Below are positions 1,792 through 23,699 of a stretch of 37,533 bases of DNA, one piece after another. The stretch is from Alphaproteobacteria bacterium. GTDB lineage: Bacteria; Pseudomonadota; Alphaproteobacteria; Bin95. Below the pieces are notes generated by a model, which worked only from the letters and a program-made list of their open reading frames with translations, was not told where the DNA came from and did no database searches. Position 1 is the first letter of the stretch. Every line of letters starts with the position of its first letter. The stretch covers positions 1 to 37,533 of the forward strand of contig JAJDVH010000261.1 of the NCBI GenBank assembly GCA_022826185.1. Direction: 5' to 3'. The position numbers and the translations under genes are program-made.

Positions 1792-4020
1792 ATGGCGCGC
1801 TACCGAGGCATTCTACGAGCAGCAGTCGCGCTGGTTCTGCTCCTGCCGGCCTCGCAGCGGACCGATGCACAGGACATGCTGATTATCGATAGCGGCGGCG
1901 CGCGCTGGAAGAGCGGAGAAAGCCGGGAACCGCCCGTGACCGTCGATTTCGGCATCGTCGACTCGCTTGCGCCCGACCGCCGCCCGACCGCCGCCCGCAG
2001 GCAGGACCGCAGGCCGCGCAGATATCTGACTCTCAACATCCCGCAGCCGATAGCGCCAATCGCGATACCCCGGCCCGAGGCGCCTCCTCCGGCCGTGCAA
2101 CTCGGCGCAAGCCCGCCGGCGCCCACCGCTCCCGCCGCAAAGCCTCCGGCCGGCGACGCCCCGGACCCGGCGCTGGCCGCCGCCCCTGTCGCAGAGCCTC
2201 CGGCGGGCGATATTCCGGAAGCCGAGCAGGCCGCCGCCCCCGCCGCGAAACCTCCGGCCGGCGACGCCCCGGAACCGGAACTGGCCGCCGCTCCCGTCGG
2301 GGAGCCTCCCGCCGTCGACACCCCGGAGCCAGAATCGGCTGCCACTCCCGCTGCGGAGCCTCCGGCTGGCTACATTCCGGAGCCGGAGCTGGCCACCGCT
2401 CCCGCTACGGAGCCTTCTGTGGGCGATACCCCGAAAGCTGAGCGGGCTGTCGCACCCGCCGCGAAGCCGCCGGCGAGCTACATTCCGGATCCGGAGTTAG
2501 CCGCCGCTCCTGTCGCAGAGCCTCCTGCGAGCGACACCCCGGAACCGGAGCAGGCCGCCGCCCCCGCCGCGGAGCCTCCTGTGGGCGACACCCCGGAACC
2601 GGAGCTGGCCGTCGTTCCCGTCACGGAGCCTTCGGCTGGCGACGCCTCGGAACTGCAACTGGCTGCCGCTCCTGTCGCGGAGCCTCCGGTGGTCGAGACC
2701 CCGGAACCGGAACGGGCTGCCGCTCCCGTCGTGGAGCCTCCTGTGGGCGATACCCCGGAGCCAGAACTGGCGGCTGCTCCTGTCGAGGAGCCTCCGGCTG
2801 GTGAGACCTCGAAACCGGAACTGGCTGCCGCTCCCGTCACGGCGCCTCCGGCTGGCGACACTCCGGAACCGGAACTGGCCGCCGTCCCCGCCGCGAAACC
2901 TCCGGCGGGCGATATCCCGGAAGCTGAGCAGGTCGCCGCTCCCGCCACGGAGCCTCCGGTGGTCGAAACCCCGGAACCGGAACTGGCTGCCGCTGCTGTC
3001 GCGGAGCCTCCGGTGGTCGAGACCCCGGAACCGGAACTGGCTGTCGCTCCCGTCGCGAAGCCTCCGGCGGTCGAGACCCCGGAACCGGAGCGGGCCGCCA
3101 CTCCTGTCGCGAAGCCCCCGGCTGGCGACACTCCGGAACCGGAACTGGCTGCCGCTCCCGCCGTGAAGCCTCCGGTGGTCGAGACCCCGGAACCGGAACT
3201 GGCCGCCACTCCTGTCGCGGAGCCCCCGGTGGTCGAGACCTCGGAACCGGAACTGGCCGCCATTCCTGTCGCGGAGCCTCCGGCCGCCGGTACCGAGCGT
3301 CCGGAACCGCCTGCCATATCGGTGCTGCCGAGCCGGCCTGCGGCCCTGCCGGTGCAGCGGCCGCCGGAAGGGAAGACGGAGGCAACGCCCGCGCTCCGGG
3401 CCTTTCTCGACCGCGCCGCCGGGAAACAGGCGTCGCCCGGAACGCTTCCGCCCGCAAGGCCCAGGGGCGTGAAGCTCCCGCCGCCGCGCCCGATCGAGCA
3501 CCGGTTCCGGTTGCCGCCGCCGGCCCCGGTGACTGCTGCGCCCGCGCTGGCCTTCGCGGCCGGGCTGCCGCCGCCCCCGCCGGCGACCGGGGCGCCCGGA
3601 AACGGCATTCTGCCGCCGCCGGCCGAGACAAACGCCGGGGGGTCCGAAGTGCTGCGCCGCCCGCTGGCGCTGGACGCGGCCCGCCGCGCTGCCGACGCGG
3701 CGCCGGCGGAGGTCTATTCCGAGACGTTCTTCCACGAGGCGGGCGGACCGCCGCTCGGCGCGGACCAGCGCGAGCGGGTGCGCCGCCTGGCGGCAAGGGT
3801 GAACGGGGCCGAAGGGCTCAGTGTGGTGATTCGGGCCTATTCCGGCGCCGGGGAGGGAAACGGCGCCGACGCCCGGCGCAGGGCGCTGTCGCGCGCCATG
3901 GAGGTCCGCGGCCTGCTGATCGCCGCCGGCGTGCCGGACACCCGTATAACGGCGCGCGCAGCAGGCGCCGGCGAAGAGCCGGCCGGTCGCGTCGATATCG
4001 TCCTGGTCAAGCGAAGTTGA
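1792..4020 (+). CDS. Secreted proline-rich repeat protein with OmpA-like C-terminal domain
   Basis: The 742-residue protein begins with a signal peptide or uncleaved anchor (hydrophobic AAVALVLLLPAS, residues about 10-21). A short segment VTVDFGIVDSLAP (about 49-61) follows. Next come 21 complete copies and one partial copy of an 18-residue Pro/Ala/Glu repeat (residues 114-491, consensus PVAEPPAGDTPEPELAAA), then a Pro-rich linker. The end (about 640-742) resembles an OmpA/MotB peptidoglycan-binding domain: FHEAGGPPL, IRAYSGAG, an LSRAMEVRGLLIAAGV helix, and GRVDIVL. It probably spans the periplasm and contacts peptidoglycan. The ATG at 1792 directly abuts GGGGAG, so the start has a tight ribosome-binding site; no better in-frame start fits the signal peptide. 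It lies 50 bp before the MotA/TolQ-like gene and is probably its functional neighbour. Ligand binding by the OmpA-like tail is inferred. Confidence 0.8.
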   Translation: MARYRGILRAAVALVLLLPASQRTDAQDMLIIDSGGARWKSGESREPPVTVDFGIVDSLAPDRRPTAARRQDRRPRRYLTLNIPQPIAPIAIPRPEAPPPAVQLGASPPAPTAPAAKPPAGDAPDPALAAAPVAEPPAGDIPEAEQAAAPAAKPPAGDAPEPELAAAPVGEPPAVDTPEPESAATPAAEPPAGYIPEPELATAPATEPSVGDTPKAERAVAPAAKPPASYIPDPELAAAPVAEPPASDTPEPEQAAAPAAEPPVGDTPEPELAVVPVTEPSAGDASELQLAAAPVAEPPVVETPEPERAAAPVVEPPVGDTPEPELAAAPVEEPPAGETSKPELAAAPVTAPPAGDTPEPELAAVPAAKPPAGDIPEAEQVAAPATEPPVVETPEPELAAAAVAEPPVVETPEPELAVAPVAKPPAVETPEPERAATPVAKPPAGDTPEPELAAAPAVKPPVVETPEPELAATPVAEPPVVETSEPELAAIPVAEPPAAGTERPEPPAISVLPSRPAALPVQRPPEGKTEATPALRAFLDRAAGKQASPGTLPPARPRGVKLPPPRPIEHRFRLPPPAPVTAAPALAFAAGLPPPPPATGAPGNGILPPPAETNAGGSEVLRRPLALDAARRAADAAPAEVYSETFFHEAGGPPLGADQRERVRRLAARVNGAEGLSVVIRAYSGAGEGNGADARRRALSRAMEVRGLLIAAGVPDTRITARAAGAGEEPAGRVDIVLVKRS
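2131..3290 (+). repeat. 54-bp in-frame tandem repeat (about 21.5 copies)
   Basis: Twenty-one consecutive 54-bp units (2131-3264) plus a partial unit encode the 18-residue motif of the proline-rich protein. Units differ by substitutions, often in alternating sub-types (PPAGD versus PPVVE), but not in length, so the reading frame is kept throughout. The pattern fits growth by slippage or unequal crossing-over. It also creates long open frames on the other strand, which are artefacts. Confidence 0.95.
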
Positions 4021-4069
4021 GCGCGCGGGCCGAAGCCGCCGGACGCCCGGCAGGGACCGGCCGGGAACC

Positions 4070-5209
4070 ATGACCCGTCCGACCCAGTATCTGGTGCGGA
4101 TGGCCGTATTCGTTGCGGTGCTCGCCGCAGCGTCGGCGCTTCTGTTCGGCCCCATTGCGGACGCCTTCATGGCCAATCCGGCGCTGAACGGGCTGATCCT
4201 GGGCATCCTCCTGATCGGCATCGCCTACAATTTCCGCCATGTGCTGCGGCTGTTCCGGGAGATCGCCTGGATCGAGTCGAATCAGGGGCCGGCGCCCGGT
4301 CCGGGCGCTCCGGCGCCGGCGCGCCCGCGCCTGCTGGCGACCCTGGCGACGGCCTTTTCGGCCGAGGCCCCGGTCCGGTTTTCCGCCGTCTCGATGCGTT
4401 CGATCCTCGACGGCGTCGCGTCGCGCGTGGAGGAAGCGAGCGAAACGGCGCGCTATCTGGCCGGCCTGCTCATCTTTCTCGGCCTCATCGGCACATTCTG
4501 GGGCCTGATCCAGACGGTCTCCGCCATAGGCGACGTCATCGGCGGGCTGGAGATCGCCGCGGGCAGCCTCACCGGCGTCTTCGAAGAGTTGAAGACCGGC
4601 CTCGATGCGCCGCTCGCGGGCATGGGCACGGCCTTCAGCTCCTCGCTGTTCGGGCTTTCCGGCGCGCTGGTGCTGGGTTTCCTGGACCTCCAGGCGTCGC
4701 AGGCGTCGAGCCGGTTCGTGAACGAGCTGGAGGAGTGGCTGTCCTCGCTCACCCGCCTCGGCTCCAGCGGCGCGGGCTTCGCCGACGGCGACCATTCGGT
4801 GCCGACCTACATCCAGGCGCTGCTGGAGACGACGGCCGAGAACCTCGAGGACCTGCGCCGCATCGTCGGCCGGGCGGAAGAGGGCCGCCATTCGGTGAAC
4901 CGCAATATCGAGTCCCTGTCCGAGACGCTGGCGGGCCTTGCCGAGCAGTTGCGCACCAGCCAGGCCGCCCATGCCCGGCTCGCCGAGGAGCAGATCGAGA
5001 CGCAGACGCTGCTGCGCCGGATGCTCGAAAGCGGGCAGCGCGGCGGGCTCGACGAAACCACCCGCCGGCATATCGCAAGCCTGGATTCGCTGCTCTCGCA
5101 GATGCGCGACGAGGTGCGCGCCGGGCGCAACGAACTGGTCGAAGACCTGCGCAACGAGATCAAGCTGCTGGCCCGCACCGTATCTGCGCGCCTGGAGGAC
5201 CGCCGGTGA
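4070..5209 (+). CDS. MotA/TolQ/ExbB-family membrane protein with coiled-coil tail
   Basis: The 379-residue inner-membrane protein has four hydrophobic segments (about residues 9-28, 38-54, 125-145 and 185-205). The central part ([20 protein letters not shown] through [21 protein letters not shown]) matches the proton-channel fold shared by MotA, TolQ and ExbB. Residues about 210-379 are charged, heptad-like and lack Pro, so they are probably a cytoplasmic coiled coil. Family members form ion-driven stators with a TolR/MotB-type partner that holds peptidoglycan. The only OmpA-like candidate here is the proline-rich gene 50 bp upstream; no separate TolR/MotB gene follows, because guaA overlaps the stop by 4 bp. 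No flagellar or Tol genes are nearby, so a specific motility or Tol role is unsupported. Confidence 0.82.
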
Positions 5210-10807: not shown

Positions 10808-12889
10808 ATGACCGCGCCGCGCTCCGCATCATCGAGGCCGGCCCCCGGCTCGTCTGAGCGCCGTTTCCTTCCCCCTTCCCGTTTCCGGCTTGCCCTCGGA
10901 TGGCGGGCGGTTCCATGCGCGCTCGCCGCCATCCTGGCCCTCGGCGCCTGCGGCGGGGGCGGCGGCGGGACGCCGAGCGGCCCGGGCTCGCAGATCACCC
11001 CGGGCTCGCAGAACACCCGGACTCCATGGCCGCTTGCCGCGACGGTGCAGGGGGCGACGCTGACGATCACCTTCAACAGCCTCCTTAAATCGTCCCCGTC
11101 CCCGGCGGCGAACAGGTTCCGTCTTTATTTTAGGACCACCGTGCCGCTCGTTAAGTGGGTCCCCACCGGCACCAGGGTGGACGGCAAGACGGTCGTCCTG
11201 ACCCTGCCCTCGGCGGTGGCTGAAACCGACCATATGGAGTTCGAGTACATGTCGGCCAGCTGCTTCGATCCTGGTGAGCCCCCCTGTATCCAGGACCTCG
11301 CCGGCAACGTCGCGCCCCTTATCGAAATCTGGCGGGTGACCCACGGCCCGCCCCCGCCGGACGGCGGGCCGTATCCGTCGCGGGGCAGGGGCCTGCCGAA
11401 CATCCGCGGTACATACGAGGACATTGCGGAGGATCCGTTGGTGTCGCCGAGCGGGTCGGCGGCGAACGGGTTGGCGGCGATAGGCCATCACACGCTGACG
11501 AGCGTACTCGACAACATCGGCCCGCGAGTGACGGCCCCGGTTCCGTCGAGCGGGCTGACGCTGGCGGGCGAAACGGTGACGCTCGCCGCGCCCCCCGCGG
11601 CGGGCCTCGCCGACGGGGAGCGGACGTGTCTGGCGGCCGGGTCCGGCGGCCGGGCCGGCTTCGCCGGGGACCGCGAGGGCTGCGCCTCCGCCGCCGGGAG
11701 CCGGAGCGTGGAGGCCGGAGAACTCCTGTACGGGAGCGCCTTTTCGCTGACGCTGGGCGCGCCGGAGGGGTCCGGGGCGCCGTCGTCGCCGCTATGGTCC
11801 GTATGGGGCCGGGGCGATTACGGGCGCTTCGCGGGCCGCCCGGAGCCGGGGACGCGCTACGAGGGCCGGCTGCGGACGGGCTGGCTCGGCGTGGATGCGC
11901 GGGCCGGGCCGTGGGTGGCGGGCCTGGCGGTGAGCCGCGGGACGGGCGAGGCGGACTACGGCTTCGACGACGGGGGCGCGCCGGGGCGGGGCCGTTCGGA
12001 GACGGCGCTGACGGCGCTCTACCCCTACGGGCGCTGGACCCTGCCGGGCGGCCTGGAGCTGTCCGGCGTGCTGGGCGCGGGCCGGGGCGAGGCGCGGCGC
12101 AGCCTGAATGGGCGCGCGCCCGGGACGAGCCGCCTCTCCATGCGGATGGGATCGGTGGGGCTGCGCCACGAGTTTCCCCGGCTTGCGGAGACCCGCCTGG
12201 CGGCGCGGGGGGATGCCAGCCTCGTGCGCATGGAGACCGGGGACGGTCCGGGCCACGCGGACGGGCTGACGGCGGACGTCTGGCGGGCGCGTCTGGGTCT
12301 GGAGGCCTCGCGGCGCTTCGCGCTGGACGGGGAGACGGCGTTCACGCCCTTCGTCGAGGCGGCGGGCCGCCGCGACGGCGGCGACGGCCTTGCCGGGACC
12401 GGGCTCGAGGCGACGGGCGGGCTGCGCTACACGGCGCCGCGTCTGCACCTGGAGGCGCGCGGGCGCTGGCTGGCGGTGCACTCGGAAGAGGGCGCGCGCG
12501 AGAGCGGCGCGAGCGTGACGGCGCGGGTCGGCCCCGGGGCGCACGGGCGGGGTCTGTCGCTCGCGCTGAACCCGCGCTGGGGCGCCGGCACGGGCGGGGC
12601 GGAGGCGCTGTGGAAGGATGAGTTGCCGCGGCCGGCCGGAACCCGGGACGGCGAAGCGGGCGCGGTTGACGCGCGCGCCGGCTGGGGCTTCGGGCTGGCC
12701 CCGCACGGACTGCTGACGCCGTTCGCGGAGATCGGGCTCTCCGGCGGGGACAGCCGCCGGCTGCGGCTCGGCGCCCGGTTCGAGGCGCCGCGCATGGCTC
12801 TCGGCGCCGAGATCGCGGGCGAGCGCGTCGAGAGCGGCGCGGCCGAACCCGGGCACACGCTGAGACTCGGCCTCCAAATGCGGTTCTGA
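10808..12889 (+). CDS. Lipoprotein-like autotransporter with one SwmB-type domain
   Basis: The 693-residue protein has a long N-terminus ending in a hydrophobic stretch and lipobox (ALAAILALGAC, Cys48) followed by six glycines. Residues about 76-178 match the SwmB bacterial-surface repeat: VQGATLTITFN, then VDGKTVVLTLPSAV, then IQDLAGNVAP. A linker (about 180-320) contains a helix-like ANGLAAIGHHTLTSVLDNIG segment of the sort found before autotransporter barrels. The rest (about 328-693) is a beta-barrel: alternating WGRGDYGRF, WLGVDARAG and LSGVLGAGRGEARR strands, ending in LQMRF with the terminal aromatic that the BAM machinery recognises. It is probably outer-membrane, exposing the SwmB part. 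The signal would be unusually long (47 residues) if the ATG at 10808 is right; no better in-frame start is seen. The function of the exposed domain is unknown. Confidence 0.8.
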   Translation: MTAPRSASSRPAPGSSERRFLPPSRFRLALGWRAVPCALAAILALGACGGGGGGTPSGPGSQITPGSQNTRTPWPLAATVQGATLTITFNSLLKSSPSPAANRFRLYFRTTVPLVKWVPTGTRVDGKTVVLTLPSAVAETDHMEFEYMSASCFDPGEPPCIQDLAGNVAPLIEIWRVTHGPPPPDGGPYPSRGRGLPNIRGTYEDIAEDPLVSPSGSAANGLAAIGHHTLTSVLDNIGPRVTAPVPSSGLTLAGETVTLAAPPAAGLADGERTCLAAGSGGRAGFAGDREGCASAAGSRSVEAGELLYGSAFSLTLGAPEGSGAPSSPLWSVWGRGDYGRFAGRPEPGTRYEGRLRTGWLGVDARAGPWVAGLAVSRGTGEADYGFDDGGAPGRGRSETALTALYPYGRWTLPGGLELSGVLGAGRGEARRSLNGRAPGTSRLSMRMGSVGLRHEFPRLAETRLAARGDASLVRMETGDGPGHADGLTADVWRARLGLEASRRFALDGETAFTPFVEAAGRRDGGDGLAGTGLEATGGLRYTAPRLHLEARGRWLAVHSEEGARESGASVTARVGPGAHGRGLSLALNPRWGAGTGGAEALWKDELPRPAGTRDGEAGAVDARAGWGFGLAPHGLLTPFAEIGLSGGDSRRLRLGARFEAPRMALGAEIAGERVESGAAEPGHTLRLGLQMRF

Positions 12890-17999: not shown

Positions 18000-18467
18000 T
18001 CAGTCCCAATGGCCGGTGCGCCGCGCCCGGTCCTGGTAGGCGCGGGCGTGGCGGGCGGCGATGCGGGCCACGCGCTCCGGCGCGAAACCGAGCTGGCCGA
18101 GCGCGATCGCAATGTCGAGCATCTCGTCATAGCGCGCGATCAGCCCGCTCCGGAGGCGGAAGCGCGACATGCCCTCGACGACCACCCGGCGCCCCGCCGC
18201 ATCCTCAAGGCGCGACCGGTAGCCGAACAGCCAGGAGGCATAGCCGATGTCGCCCGCTTCGCAGATGTCCTCGAAGCGCCAGCGGAAATCGTCCGCATCG
18301 CGCCAGAACCGGTTCTCCAGCATGTCCGCAATGGCGTCCCGGCCCTCGAACGCGCCGTAGAAGGTGTCGTGGTAGATGCCGTCCTCGGTAAAGCAGGCGG
18401 CCAGCGCCCGCCCGTCCCCCGCCTCCACGGCGGCGGCCAAGCGGGGCAGGAGGGTGCGTAGCGTCAT
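18000..18467 (-). CDS. SnoaL-like/NTF2-fold protein of unknown substrate
   Basis: The 155-residue protein fits the SnoaL-like cystatin/NTF2 fold (RTLLPRLAAAVEAGDGRALAACFTEDGIYHDTFYGAFEGRDAI, then the FRWRFEDICEAGDIGYASW strand set). The family includes small hydrolases, isomerases and binding proteins acting on hydrophobic pocket ligands. The start at 18467 is chosen because AAAGGAG sits 6 nt upstream; an ATG at 18485 lacks one. It stands alone on the minus strand, facing the ABC operon. Nothing links it to a pathway. Confidence 0.8.
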   Translation of the reverse strand: MTLRTLLPRLAAAVEAGDGRALAACFTEDGIYHDTFYGAFEGRDAIADMLENRFWRDADDFRWRFEDICEAGDIGYASWLFGYRSRLEDAAGRRVVVEGMSRFRLRSGLIARYDEMLDIAIALGQLGFAPERVARIAARHARAYQDRARRTGHWD

Positions 18468-18501
18468 CTCATGCTCCTTTCCCAAGCTTTTCGGAGTCTA
18501 T

Positions 18502-18521
18502 CCCGCATTTCTCACCAGGGT
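18502..18521. repeat. Possible solo IS end, similar to the IS1380-type end at 37303
   Basis: The 20-mer CCCGCATTTCTCACCAGGGT matches CCCGGATTTCTCACCGGGTG at 37303-37322 through the shared core ATTTCTCACC with CCCG and GGGT flanks (one substitution and one indel). No transposase lies nearby, so this may be a relic end or a chance match. Confidence 0.4.
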
Positions 18522-18619
18522 CACGGTCTGCGCTGCGATCCGTGACAGGCCACCGACCATGGGCTTGAACTCTGAATTGGCTGGCCGGTGAGGTTTCGTG
18601 TCGCGGCAAGCTGAAATAA

Positions 18620-18667
18620 ATAGAATATATTTTTATTTACATGTATTTTAGTGATGATATATTCTAT
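18620..18667. repeat. 11-bp inverted repeat in an AT-rich patch
   Basis: ATAGAATATAT (18620-18630) is exactly mirrored by ATATATTCTAT (18657-18667) around a 26-bp AT-rich spacer. In a two-thirds G+C genome this patch stands out. It could be an operator, a promoter zone or a mobile-element remnant 435 bp upstream of the kinase gene. Confidence 0.75.
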
Positions 18668-19102
18668 GACGGCAGCCGGGAGCTACTCGAGCGGTTACAT
18701 GACGTTGGAAAGTTGCATCATGCGGGCGATAGCGCGACATCGGCGATTCCCGCCGTTCACCGACGAAACGGGACCGCCCTGGCTTATTGCGACGCCGAGG
18801 CGCGAGCATCGGATTCGGCCGGTTGCCTGCAACGAGAATACAGAGGCCAAAGGCGATCTCGCCCGTATTGGCGCTAGAACGCGAGCAACCTCGCACCCTG
18901 GTGGGGCGTGGAACCTACCGGCCAGGCCGGCGGAGCCTGCGGCGTCGTTTCCGGCCTGCGGCATGCGAACCGGCACCGGCCAGCCAGCCTTCTCCAGGCG
19001 CGCGCGCCGCTTTGCCGGAGGCTGCAATAGGAAGCGGCCCGCCAGCGTCTCGGAGCGCCTCCGCCCACCGATCCAATCATAGACCGAAGGAATTCACGGA
19101 TC

Positions 19103-22100
19103 ATGGCAAAACAGAACCGCTCTATTCACCTGAGCCACCTATTTTCCGACCTCACCGGACAACTCGGCTTGGTCAATGTCAACTTTTCGCTAGCCCCTCA
19201 GTTCAACATTTACCGAACTCCGGCAGGCCGCTCGGGCGCCCCCTCTTCGCACCGGACGAATGACCAAAATACCCAAGCCAACGTGCCGGCCGCCGGGAAC
19301 ACCGGTCCTGCCGCCGACTCCCCAACAGCTTTTCATGTCGGGCCCGATCCTGTCCGGCAGACCCTGATTTCCGGAAAACGGCACACCCTTGTCCATCCAA
19401 GCCCCGATGGATCGTTCCGCATCGTATATACCAAGACGCAAAGCCTCTTTACCTTCACGCTCCCGTCGTCAGAGAGCGCGTCGCCACCCTCGGAGGCCGG
19501 GGAGGCCAAGGGGCCGATAACCAAAAACATCGACGGCTATCGGGTCAAATTCGATACTGTCCGGTCCATTGAGCAGGCGGACCCCAAAGACGCGAACCGC
19601 GAAAATGACCCCGATGCCCCCGTGTTGGTGGGACTTCCTCTCTCGATTTACCGGTCAGGCAGAGGAACGGAGTACTTTCTTCTTACCAATTTCTATTTCG
19701 ACCCTCCCGCCCAAGAACAGAACGAACCGGCGCAAGAATCCTCCCCAAATACGGAATCCCCGGGCGGAGCAACGACCCCTCCCAGCGACCCGGCAGATCA
19801 TCCCTCCATAGAAACCGGATCTGTCGATGGTCCAACAGCATCTCCTGACGGCTCGGCGGGAGGCCCCCCCCAACCTCCGCCTGTTGCAGTAGCGTCTCCT
19901 GGCGGTAACGAACCCCCGAATGGCCCCGATTACGTAGGCATTGCCAACCGTCGTCTCCAGATTACCTTATTCAGCGACTTAGGCGAAGTAACCAAGCGCA
20001 CCTTTTTCCTCGACGACCCTCCGAAAAAGCTCGGAGACGGTAGCTTCGGCGTAGTTTACCAGGTGCGCGAACTTCTAGGAACACCCTCCGAAACCTCAGG
20101 CAACGAAAGGTCGCCCCCTCCTCGGGCCGGTAGTGCGCAACCAGGCGCCCGGTACGCCTTAAAGGTGTTTTACAATAGGCAGATGATGACCCGTACCGGG
20201 CTCATTCGCGTGGAACCCGAATCATTCAATAAACTTGTGACTCACGAAGCCGATCAAATTACCGATGTTAGAGAAATATCAATTGCCAGCTTTATGGGGC
20301 ACATTTTTCAATCTATTAACACCAGCAAATCCCCAAACGATGTTCATGCCCAAGCTATGGCAATACTTGGACAGTCCGAACGACTTCAAAATGTATCTGC
20401 GAAACGATTTGGTAACGAAAGAAACATATCTCGCAGCATACGGGAAGTATTGGAATCCGAAGCAGGCGTGAACGTGAATGCCATCACATGTGTACAAACT
20501 GAATATGATACTACTCGCTTTCGCGACTCTGATATGTTTCGTTTTTTGCAAGAATACGAGCGCAAAAAGAACTCAAGTACTGCAGATAATCTCTCGGATT
20601 ATGCAATAGTGATGGAGCTATTTAACTTCACACTAGAAGATTTACTGGAAGCCCAATGGAGAATTTGGAGGGAGACAGGTGTCGATTCTGACAAAACACA
20701 TTCCGTCTCGGCATCAGGAGAGTATCGAGCAGCGCCTGTCCTTGGCGAAAACGTGATTGCAGGTAGGGACATAGGATCTAACAGAGACAACCGCCCTGTT
20801 GACGATCCGGCCCCTTTGGAGTATGAAAAAATAGTAACCGGATATGATATGGTGCAAAGCCTGCCATTTGCGCAGCGTCTAGCTGTCGTATATCCAATAA
20901 TGGAAGGGTTGTCAATCGCTCTACAAATGCTTCATGCCACGCGAAATTATCATCACGATATCAAGCCTGGTAATGTATTCATTAATGCAAGCTTGAAAAA
21001 ATTTTATGTGGCTTTGGGTGATTTCAGTTTTGTGGGGAGCGGAGTGGACAAGGGAACAACGGAGGCGGTACTCCGGGACTCGATTCAAACGGGGAGCCTG
21101 CATTTTCGTTCACCGGAGCAACGAGACTTCAATGACGCAGCATATGGGCTCGTGCGGCATTCCGGATGTTGTAAGAACCCTGGCCCGGAGTATGAGGATC
21201 GGAATGTCAGCGGTGGAGAGGGGTGGGCGTATGTTCGGATATCGGACCCGAAGTTTAGAGGCAGCACAATCGGTCTCAACGATGTGGTGGTTTTCCCGGC
21301 GGATCGCTATGGGACGGGCTATCGGGTTATCAAGGTGGAGAGTAAGAAGGATTACCGGGATGTTTGGTTGAATGTCGATGCGGGGGAATTTAAGAAACTT
21401 TTTCCCGAAGAAACCCGGACCAAGGTATTCCTGTATAAAGTCCCAACGGTTCGGTCGGATTTATTTGGCTTGGGAGCGGTGTTTTTCGATTTGCTTACCG
21501 GAGGACAGTCTGCGGAACGCTTTTACGAGGCGTTGAGGCCATTCGATGCACCCGAGGAATTGAACGGCAGGGAGGGGATCGGCTCAGAGGACGGAAACAA
21601 GCGTTTGACAGCAAAGGATATGGCGCAAAGATTCGATGCCTATCGGAGCGGAACGCGAGTAGGTAACTATGGGGAGTTTGGGGCCGCATTGTCGAATATG
21701 TTTCAGTTTTTCCGGAGGGGAGACGACTTTGCACCGCGGGAGGTGGTGGAGATTATAGTCAAGTTGATGGGAGGGAATTTAGCGGATTCTTATATGAATA
21801 CCAACGCTGCGGAGAGGCCAGTCCCGAAGCATTTGCAAAGGATTGCTCCCGAGGCGTTGCCGGTTTCGTGGGCCTTGCAGGATATTGAGGCGGTGGAGAA
21901 GAAGGGAATTTACGATTGGCGCGACGGTTTGGGGCAGAAGGGAGCGGATAATCTATTGTTGCGGCCCGAGCAGTCGCAGCAATTGTTGGAGATTGTGGTT
22001 GAAGCGCAAGGGGCTGTACCCGCGGGGTCGGAAGGCCAGGCCGAAAAGGACGTGTCAGGGGATAAAGATAAGGCGAAGCCAAAAAGCTGGATAGATAGGC

Positions 22101-22138
22101 TGGCCGAGAGGCTGGGCACTGTCCCGCGGACGAGCTGA
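19103..22138 (+). CDS. Large divergent protein kinase with proline-rich N-terminus (orphan)
   Basis: This 1011-residue protein carries a divergent Hanks-type kinase domain (about 305-890). Visible motifs are the glycine loop LGDGSFGVVY (310-319), the ATP lysine in YALK (Lys354), a hinge-like YAIVMELFNFTLEDLL (500-514), the catalytic loop HHDIKPGN (Asp619, Lys621, Asn624), the metal site DFS instead of DFG (Asp640), GSLHFRSPEQ (664-673) and SDLFGLGAVFFDLLTG (785-800). All core catalytic residues remain. Two long inserts are unusual: about 150 residues between Lys354 and the hinge, and about 110 residues (673-782) between the APE-like motif and the F-helix, partly beta-rich (YVRISDP, NDVVVFPAD, YRVIKVES). 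Residues 1-300 include a Pro-rich disordered linker (about 200-275). No transmembrane segment, PASTA or signal peptide is evident. G+C is about 52 % at the ends and about 40 % over 20221-20400, against about 68 % in neighbours, pointing to transfer. Function and substrate are unknown. Confidence 0.85.
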   Translation: MAKQNRSIHLSHLFSDLTGQLGLVNVNFSLAPQFNIYRTPAGRSGAPSSHRTNDQNTQANVPAAGNTGPAADSPTAFHVGPDPVRQTLISGKRHTLVHPSPDGSFRIVYTKTQSLFTFTLPSSESASPPSEAGEAKGPITKNIDGYRVKFDTVRSIEQADPKDANRENDPDAPVLVGLPLSIYRSGRGTEYFLLTNFYFDPPAQEQNEPAQESSPNTESPGGATTPPSDPADHPSIETGSVDGPTASPDGSAGGPPQPPPVAVASPGGNEPPNGPDYVGIANRRLQITLFSDLGEVTKRTFFLDDPPKKLGDGSFGVVYQVRELLGTPSETSGNERSPPPRAGSAQPGARYALKVFYNRQMMTRTGLIRVEPESFNKLVTHEADQITDVREISIASFMGHIFQSINTSKSPNDVHAQAMAILGQSERLQNVSAKRFGNERNISRSIREVLESEAGVNVNAITCVQTEYDTTRFRDSDMFRFLQEYERKKNSSTADNLSDYAIVMELFNFTLEDLLEAQWRIWRETGVDSDKTHSVSASGEYRAAPVLGENVIAGRDIGSNRDNRPVDDPAPLEYEKIVTGYDMVQSLPFAQRLAVVYPIMEGLSIALQMLHATRNYHHDIKPGNVFINASLKKFYVALGDFSFVGSGVDKGTTEAVLRDSIQTGSLHFRSPEQRDFNDAAYGLVRHSGCCKNPGPEYEDRNVSGGEGWAYVRISDPKFRGSTIGLNDVVVFPADRYGTGYRVIKVESKKDYRDVWLNVDAGEFKKLFPEETRTKVFLYKVPTVRSDLFGLGAVFFDLLTGGQSAERFYEALRPFDAPEELNGREGIGSEDGNKRLTAKDMAQRFDAYRSGTRVGNYGEFGAALSNMFQFFRRGDDFAPREVVEIIVKLMGGNLADSYMNTNAAERPVPKHLQRIAPEALPVSWALQDIEAVEKKGIYDWRDGLGQKGADNLLLRPEQSQQLLEIVVEAQGAVPAGSEGQAEKDVSGDKDKAKPKSWIDRLAERLGTVPRTS

Positions 22139-22150
22139 CGTTGCGCAGAT

Positions 22151-22173
22151 GGGGGACGGCACCGACCGCCCCC
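22151..22173. terminator. GC-rich hairpin between convergent genes
   Basis: GGGGGaCGG pairs with CCGCCCCC around a 6-nt loop, with one bulged A. It sits in the 43-bp gap between the kinase stop and the uxaA-type stop. No T tract follows on either strand, so it is at best a pause or weak bidirectional terminator. Confidence 0.35.
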
Positions 22174-22181
22174 GCGGCCCT

Positions 22182-23699
22182 TCACATCACCGCGCCGACC
22201 TGCCAGGGGATGAACTCCGCCGTGCCGAGGCCCTGGGCTTCGGACTTGGTGGCTTCGCCGGAGGCGACGGCGAGGAACTTGTCGAAGATCTCGCTTCCGA
22301 CCTCGGCCACGCTGGCCGCGCCGTCGGTAATCGTGCCGCAATTGATGTCCATGTCCTCTTCGAGGCGGCGGTACATCTCGGTGTTGGTGGCGAGCTTGAT
22401 CGAGGGCACCGGCTTGTTGCCATAGACCGAGCCGCGCCCGGTGGTGAAGCAGACCAGGTTCGCGCCTGACGCCACCTGCCCGGTGATGGAGCAGGGGTCG
22501 TAGCCGGGGCTGTCCATGAACACGAAGCCCTTGCGGTCGATGGGCTCGCCATAGCGGTAAACCCCGGCGAGATTGGTGGTGCCGCCCTTGGCCGCCGCGC
22601 CCAGCGACTTCTCCAGGATGGTCGTGAGGCCGCCCGCCTTGTTGCCGGGAGAGGGGTTGTTGTTCATCTCGCCACCATTGCGCTCGGTGTAGTCCTCCCA
22701 CCAGCGGATGCGCTCGATGAGCTTCCTGCCGGTGCGCTCGTCCACGGCCCGGCGGGTCAGCAGATGCTCCGCGCCGTAGATTTCCGGCGTCTCGGCCAGT
22801 ACGCCGGTGCCGCCATGGCGCACCAGCATGTCAACGGCCGCGCCCAGCGCCGGGTTCGCGGTAATGCCGGAATAGCCGTCCGAGCCGCCGCATTGCAGCG
22901 CAACGGTGAGTTCCGAGGCCGCGACCGGCCGGCGCCGCGCGCGGTCCGCCTCCGGCAGCATGTCGCGGATGAGGTCGCGGCCCCGCTCCACCGTGCGCCG
23001 GAGGCCGCCGGTCTCCTGGATGTTCATGGTCTGGAGGAAGGGGCCGCGCTCCAGCCCGTAGGCTTCGAGCAGGAAGTCGATCTGGTTGACCTCGCAGCCG
23101 AGCCCGACCAGCACGATGCCGGCGAAGTTCGGGTGGCGCGCATGGCCCCAGAGCACGCGCTGGAGGTTTTCGTAGCCGTCTCCCGCCCCGGCCATGCCGC
23201 AGCCGGTGGAGTGGGTGAGCGCCACGACGCCGTCCACATGGCTGTAGTCCGCCAGGATGCGGTCCTCCACCGCCTCGGCGATGAAGCGCGCGGCGGTGGC
23301 CGAGCAGTTCACGCTGGTCAGCACGCCGATATAGTTCCGCGTGCCGACGCTGCCGTTCGCACGCAGATATCCCCGGAAGCTCGCCCGGTTGCCTTCGGGC
23401 ACGAAATCGACGGGCTTCATGTCCCGCCCGATGGCGTAGTCGCGCTCGAAATCGCCCATCGCGCAGTTGTGGACATGGACATGCGCGCCGGCCTCCACCG
23501 GCTCGCTGGCGAAGCCGATGATCTGGTCGTATTTGCGGACCGGCTCGCCGACGGCTATCGGCCGCGTGGCGATCTTGTGGCCGGCCGGCACGACATCGAG
23601 CGCGGTGACGCCCTCGCCGGGTATCTCCGTTCCGGAAAGGACATCGACGCGGGCGACGACCACATTGTCTTCGGGCGCAAGGCGGATGGAGAGGGTCAT
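22182..23699 (-). CDS. UxaA-family altronate/galactarate-type dehydratase
   Basis: The family uses iron to dehydrate sugar acids such as altronate or galactarate to keto-deoxy acids. The 505-residue protein joins an N-terminal SAF domain (about 1-95, HVHNCAMGDFERDY) to the UxaA catalytic part. Conserved stretches there are VGTRNYIGVLTSVNCSATAA, HSTGCGMAGAG, LGCEVNQID, LQCGGSDGYSGITANPALG, NPSPGNKAGGLTTILEKSLG and DSPGYDPCSITGQVASGANL. The cysteines expected to bind the cluster or metal are kept. Length equals full-size UxaA. It is the last gene of a minus-strand operon, 15 bp after the MmgE/PrpD gene. The real substrate may be another hydroxy acid, since no hexuronate genes are nearby. Confidence 0.92.
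   Translation of the reverse strand: MTLSIRLAPEDNVVVARVDVLSGTEIPGEGVTALDVVPAGHKIATRPIAVGEPVRKYDQIIGFASEPVEAGAHVHVHNCAMGDFERDYAIGRDMKPVDFVPEGNRASFRGYLRANGSVGTRNYIGVLTSVNCSATAARFIAEAVEDRILADYSHVDGVVALTHSTGCGMAGAGDGYENLQRVLWGHARHPNFAGIVLVGLGCEVNQIDFLLEAYGLERGPFLQTMNIQETGGLRRTVERGRDLIRDMLPEADRARRRPVAASELTVALQCGGSDGYSGITANPALGAAVDMLVRHGGTGVLAETPEIYGAEHLLTRRAVDERTGRKLIERIRWWEDYTERNGGEMNNNPSPGNKAGGLTTILEKSLGAAAKGGTTNLAGVYRYGEPIDRKGFVFMDSPGYDPCSITGQVASGANLVCFTTGRGSVYGNKPVPSIKLATNTEMYRRLEEDMDINCGTITDGAASVAEVGSEIFDKFLAVASGEATKSEAQGLGTAEFIPWQVGAVM

Follow-up and report, generated by a model that had tools for sequence, protein, structure and literature searches.

A new family of bacterial Hanks-type kinases with a folded beta domain inserted ahead of helix F

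Introduction

In JAK-type tandems, an active kinase is coupled to a degenerate copy within one chain. The described bacterial systems closest to the locus presented here are the PASTA kinases PknB/Stk1, the MAD6 kinase of the MADS defence system and the PD-T4-6 defence kinases. Insertions in kinase domains were reported in a 2025 survey of bacterial pseudokinase families for ActPs2, a non-catalytic group in which the beta3 Lys and the catalytic Asp are substituted and the insertions were modelled as disordered (PMC12599244).

Here, we describe P0001, a kinase encoded in a 37,533-nt alphaproteobacterial contig (JAJDVH010000261.1, hereafter the window), which had been singled out by a sequence-only reading as an orphan kinase with two large insertions. 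P0001 and its insert-bearing relatives form a new, previously unnamed family, whose hallmark is a folded beta domain (~90-115 residues) located after the APE motif and before helix F.

A Hanks-type kinase with an intact catalytic core

The P0001 ORF starts with ATG, is free of internal stops over 1011 aa and is present as a single copy within its genome (Table 1). The beta3 Lys, the HxD catalytic Asp, the Asn and the DxG Asp of Hanks-type Ser/Thr kinases are all present. The five core residues named in the sequence-only reading (Lys354, Asp619, Lys621, Asn624 and Asp640) were found at exactly these positions and are invariant in 15 of the 15 aligned family sequences; the DFS (640-642), RSPEQ (669-673) and SDLFGLG (785-791) motifs had likewise been placed correctly. 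DFS is common only to P0001 and its relative from Robiginitomaculum, the other members having D[LFY]G.

Pfam recognises a mere Pkinase fragment in P0001 (residues 598-672, below the cut-off) because the inserts interrupt the domain. Despite these inserts, the bilobal kinase fold was recovered whole by structure comparison of an AlphaFold2 (AF2) model built with the relatives as alignment: residues 282-917 superimposed on PknB (5u94) with a Z score of 17.9 and an rmsd of 2.9 over 249 aligned residues, and the model compared to PknB and Aurora A at Z ~17.9 over ~247-249 residues. The kinase is mostly modelled at pLDDT 75-90, residues 1-277 and 915-1011 mostly at low confidence. Hence, by sequence and fold, P0001 is a Hanks-type Ser/Thr kinase and, with its catalytic motifs intact, it is apparently catalytically competent.

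Table 1. Features of the P0001 locus (positions in the window)
Feature	Positions	Strand	Evidence
P0001, 1011-aa kinase	19103..22138	+	ORF and translation, kinase fold, family alignment
N-terminal extension, residues 1-285	19103..19957	+	AF2
First expansion, between beta3 and hinge (residues 358-495), helical for the most part in AF2	20174..20587	+	
Catalytic loop HHDIKPGN (from D619), DFS and RSPEQ, residues 619-673	20957..21121	+	
Beta-domain insert conserved in the family (residues 674-783), flanked by RSPEQ and SDLFGLG	21122..21451	+	
Remainder of the kinase C-lobe, starting with helix F (residues 784-905)	21452..21817	+	alignment, AF2, structure comparison
Foreign segment (approximate, ~3.7 kb), bounded by the KSI-like and galD genes	18469..22183	.	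GC3
Left flank, SnoaL/KSI-like gene	18000..18485	-	
Right flank, galD, galactarate/altronate dehydratase	22182..23699	-	Pfam, site comparison

One conserved insert and one variable expansion

The second insert, predicted to span about 110 residues between the APE-like motif and helix F, measures 110 residues in P0001; counted between EQ and the helix-F motif, its length is 91-116 residues throughout the 15 aligned sequences. P0001 therefore carries the mark of the family, a beta insert of 91-116 residues between [PI]EQ and [RQN][ST]D[LIV]F[GS]. Its description as a small beta domain is borne out by AF2, which models the insert as an ordered beta domain both in P0001 (strands at 680-687, 708-713, 728-730, 739-747, 752-757 and 771-778) and in the member from Nostoc mirabile. 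The framing motifs DPKF, D..VVF and K.....RTDLFG are conserved in the family, and DPKF and D..VVF contain a D, a K and a D that are invariant. Hence, the refuting case of a disordered or strain-specific insert does not apply, as it is folded and shared across several phyla, and its proposed position beside the activation segment is supported, in an apparently active kinase. A profile of the insert found no match among the sequences of solved structures.

The first insert fared differently as a candidate conserved domain. Between the beta3 Lys and the catalytic loop, the aligned relatives have anywhere from 143 to 266 residues, and this expansion is therefore not a fixed module.

Members and distribution of the family

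When a single sequence or a two-sequence profile was used, close-relative scans of genome contigs and of viral contigs were empty. The search for homologues keeping the insert, as suggested in the sequence-only reading, succeeded when a profile was run against 398 Pseudomonadota genomes and uncovered a Magnetococcales relative with the same insert. The peptide G..H[FY]RSPEQxD, scanned as a DNA pattern over 84,980 species genomes, gave 19 stretches, 13 of which are full-length members and two partial or broken; the pattern matches L039, L048, L052 and L053 were attributed to chance. The phylum matches L032-L036 and the viral-contig matches L090-L093 were rejected as kinases without the insert, the only kind found in viral contigs, and zero members were found in phage and plasmid collections. 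One of the rejected stretches, from a congener (L035 6526-9074, G002:C383), encodes a low-GC kinase without the insert followed by a UvrD-like helicase gene, possibly a separate two-gene defence unit.

Members were found in Nostoc, Anabaena, Cyanothece and other cyanobacteria, in Robiginitomaculum (Maricaulales, Alphaproteobacteria), a Gammaproteobacterium and Magnetococcales, as well as in a 'Deltaproteobacteria' bin and the bacterium p16x63bins.49. P0001 aligns with the Robiginitomaculum relative continuously through the insert (E 5e-77, 32% over 281-898), and the two are grouped in the tree with 99-100% support, on long branches. At E <1e-20, members were present in one of 385 Alphaproteobacteria, which is the genome of P0001 itself, and, among 291 genomes from one cyanobacterial class, in three, each of them a seed genome. 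One Nostoc copy of the cassette is broken and interrupted (L087 8104-10103, also L038). The cassette is rare, patchy and inserted at variable places. No described family matched in the libraries and the open-access literature searched by words, and the earlier reservation that the protein could fall inside a well-described kinase family found no support there.

Companion genes and a degenerate second lobe

The designation of P0001 as an orphan kinase is only partly right: P0001 has no upstream companion gene, a majority feature of the family, and no second lobe, but most relatives have both. The sequence-only reading had mentioned neither these two features nor the foreign origin and the occupied and empty sites described below. 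Eleven members with enough sequence have an ORF of 235-282 aa immediately upstream of the kinase gene. It is missing in one member, from an uncultured cyanobacterium, and the Robiginitomaculum relative lacks both the companion and the second lobe. Divergence among the upstream proteins is far more rapid than in the kinase. The companions of cyanobacteria are mutually related, and the gammaproteobacterial one is related to them (E 1.5e-4); the deltaproteobacterial and p16x63 companions are related to each other, while those of Magnetococcales and of a congener of the P0001 host (G003) have no detectable relation to other companions. By profile comparison, the companions thus do not all belong to one detectable family, and none has a convincing match in Pfam or PDB.

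An N-terminal extension is present in P0001 and in its closest relative, from Robiginitomaculum. Homology of the P0001 extension to the upstream companion genes was unsupported by three profile tests. In the AF2 model, the extension contains low-confidence beta strands at 87-199, the rest being mostly low-confidence Pro-rich sequence. It stands where relatives have the upstream companion gene and, judging from this position, may be a fused companion.

In members other than P0001 and the Robiginitomaculum relative, ~510-610 residues follow the helix-F motif. The profile of this C-terminal half matched the kinase profile (probability 93.9, E 2.6e-8, 293 columns), the C-lobe alone giving E 2e-6 and the insert against the insert E 3e-5; reversed and ten column-shuffled profiles, used as controls, gave E 0.14 or worse. 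In the second lobe, FSELHPTNL replaces HLDLKPANI, and neither a DFG nor the N-lobe motifs were recognised. In the AF2 model for the member from Nostoc mirabile, with a mean pLDDT of 78, the strand order is the same in both inserts (260-343 and 607-708). Because of the C-lobe-like profile match and the matching strand order, the second half is best read as a degenerate kinase C-lobe with its own copy of the beta domain. The majority of the other members have this second C-lobe, whereas P0001 ends ~110 residues past the kinase. A homologue of the second lobe (41% over 119 residues) is encoded on plasmid pTB1 of Roseobacter denitrificans as the 205-aa hypothetical protein RD1_RS19715 (L025 1314-1931), adjoining a tyrosine recombinase gene, and is probably a remnant.

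Foreign origin and exchange at the galD-KSI site

The P0001 gene was acquired horizontally. Its GC content falls as low as 0.46 compared to ~0.70 for the window, and its GC3 is 0.55 compared to ~0.90 in the nearest neighbours. The site between galD and the KSI-like gene is empty in three congeners (G004, G005 and G006), in which the two genes are 26-80 bp apart, and is occupied in G002 by ~0.9 kb of different DNA whose GC content resembles that of the host (L012 1575-2496). In G003, where the proteins flanking the site are 93-97% identical, the gap holds the kinase P0005, of 1040 aa and 27% identical to P0001, together with an upstream ORF. P0005 is a different subfamily member at the site of P0001. 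A clade of P0001 and P0005 was rejected (AU p 0.0017, with long branches), and the site most likely therefore received two different members of one family. No terminal inverted repeats or recombinase are evident in the inserted segment.

Elsewhere in the window, an OmpA-like gene (742 aa) is followed by a MotA/ExbB-like gene (379 aa) with a weak ZorA match at 1792-5209 (+), which are possibly a ZorAB-like pair, and an autotransporter beta-domain protein with an SWM-type repeat is encoded at 10808-12889 (+).

Proposed role and alternative explanations

The whole is best explained, and on balance probably so, by a self-contained sensor-kinase switch for responses to stress or to invaders (phage or plasmid). 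In such a switch, the beta domain on the substrate side of the C-lobe would serve as a docking and gating element, controlling the access of a substrate or partner kinase to the P+1/activation-segment surface; its position is what suggests the gating role. In tandem members, the degenerate lobe would restrain the active lobe or present the substrate, in the manner of a pseudokinase, and in P0001, which has no second lobe, the N-terminal extension or another protein would take its part. The arrival of a signal would release the kinase from restraint, and as its output it would phosphorylate proteins of the host. The patchiness, the exchange at one site and the fast-changing companions favour a role in conflict or stress.

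The genes around the cassettes are mostly ordinary, counts being without background control. HicAB (L077 13360-13774) and FitA-like/PIN (L083 7565-8178) pairs lie directly beside two cyanobacterial cassettes, the kinase gene of Robiginitomaculum is immediately preceded by HTH and Fic genes (L042 170-1287), and NACHT-GUN4 adjoins another cassette, so that each of the four adjoins one cassette, again without background control. A defence role is plausible in view of the mobility, the variability of the insertion site and some of these toxin-antitoxin, NACHT and Fic neighbours; defence against phages specifically can be put forward only tentatively. The sequence-only reading had also named toxicity and interaction with a host, for neither of which the analysis gave any evidence.

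It is possible, if doubtful, that the cassette is an anti-phage kinase system, in which infection would be sensed by the companion or the N-terminal domain and growth halted through phosphorylation of host targets that the beta domain selects. The gene is accessory, low in GC and exchanged at one site between sister species, its kinase core resembles the PD-T4-6 and MAD6 models, the upstream proteins outpace the kinase in divergence as sensors do, and four cassettes adjoin the genes listed above. However, the defence-profile matches of the family end at the generic kinase core, no defence island was recognised within the window and the neighbour counts are those without background control. The conserved active site would also suit an ordinary, transferred kinase that regulates metabolism or development and uses its insert as a substrate-docking domain, and in four Nostoc-group genomes the cassette occupies the same place beside a histidine kinase gene, as a resident regulator would. 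Yet the gene is absent from nearly all relatives, is broken in one Nostoc (L038) and shares its galD-KSI site with a different member, and we regard this explanation as rather unlikely. Extremely improbable is that P0001 is a decaying or chance ORF, its insert being meaningless foreign DNA in a broken kinase: the mean pLDDT is low outside the kinase and the genome has one copy, but the position, length and motif of the insert are conserved across phyla, the catalytic residues are intact and 1011 codons are open, and the family alignment refutes this reading.

The sensor-kinase switch could be carried further to a new kinase-based bacterial immune module, with a fast-changing companion or N-terminal sensor, active and pseudokinase lobes each bearing the same beta domain, which would pair or dock targets, and a cassette exchanged at shared sites; in this full form the proposal is speculative and rather unlikely. 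Control of a kinase by a folded domain that sits ahead of helix F, after the APE motif, and is duplicated along with a degenerate lobe would be unusual. Since there are members in culturable Nostoc and Anabaena, the family is open to testing. If the cassettes are defence systems, they add to bacterial immunity a class of kinases that current profile libraries do not resolve.

Comparison with described kinases

The PknB/Stk1 PASTA kinases share the Hanks fold and the catalytic motifs with P0001, which differs from them by the insert before helix F. The absence of a PASTA domain, deduced earlier from the sequence, agrees with the Pfam matches, which include none, and P0001 scores 26.6 bits with the NCBIfam PASTA kinase model NF033483, below its cut-off of 450 bits. 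MAD6 of the MADS defence system is the best PADLOC match of the family (E 9e-20), over the kinase core only; P0001 reaches 28.2 bits with NF047741 (MAD6), below the cut-off of 460 bits, and no MADS partner genes were recognised in the window, the neighbours being an ABC transporter, the KSI-like gene and galD. The PD-T4-6 defence kinases match ~75 residues of the P0001 kinase core (E 1e-9; residues 596-674 on positions 111-184 of 292 in a profile without a curated cut-off), and this match ends at the APE motif.

Similarly to P0001, ActPs2 has large insertions in the kinase domain, one of which spans ~250 residues in the activation loop (PMC12599244). In P0001, by contrast, K354 and D619 are present in an intact active lobe, whose folded insert comes after the APE motif. 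Finally, the tandem members of the family, P0001 itself being without a degenerate lobe, would work like JAK-type tandems, and the family is set apart from these by the different order of its lobes, its different origin and its duplicated C-lobe insert.
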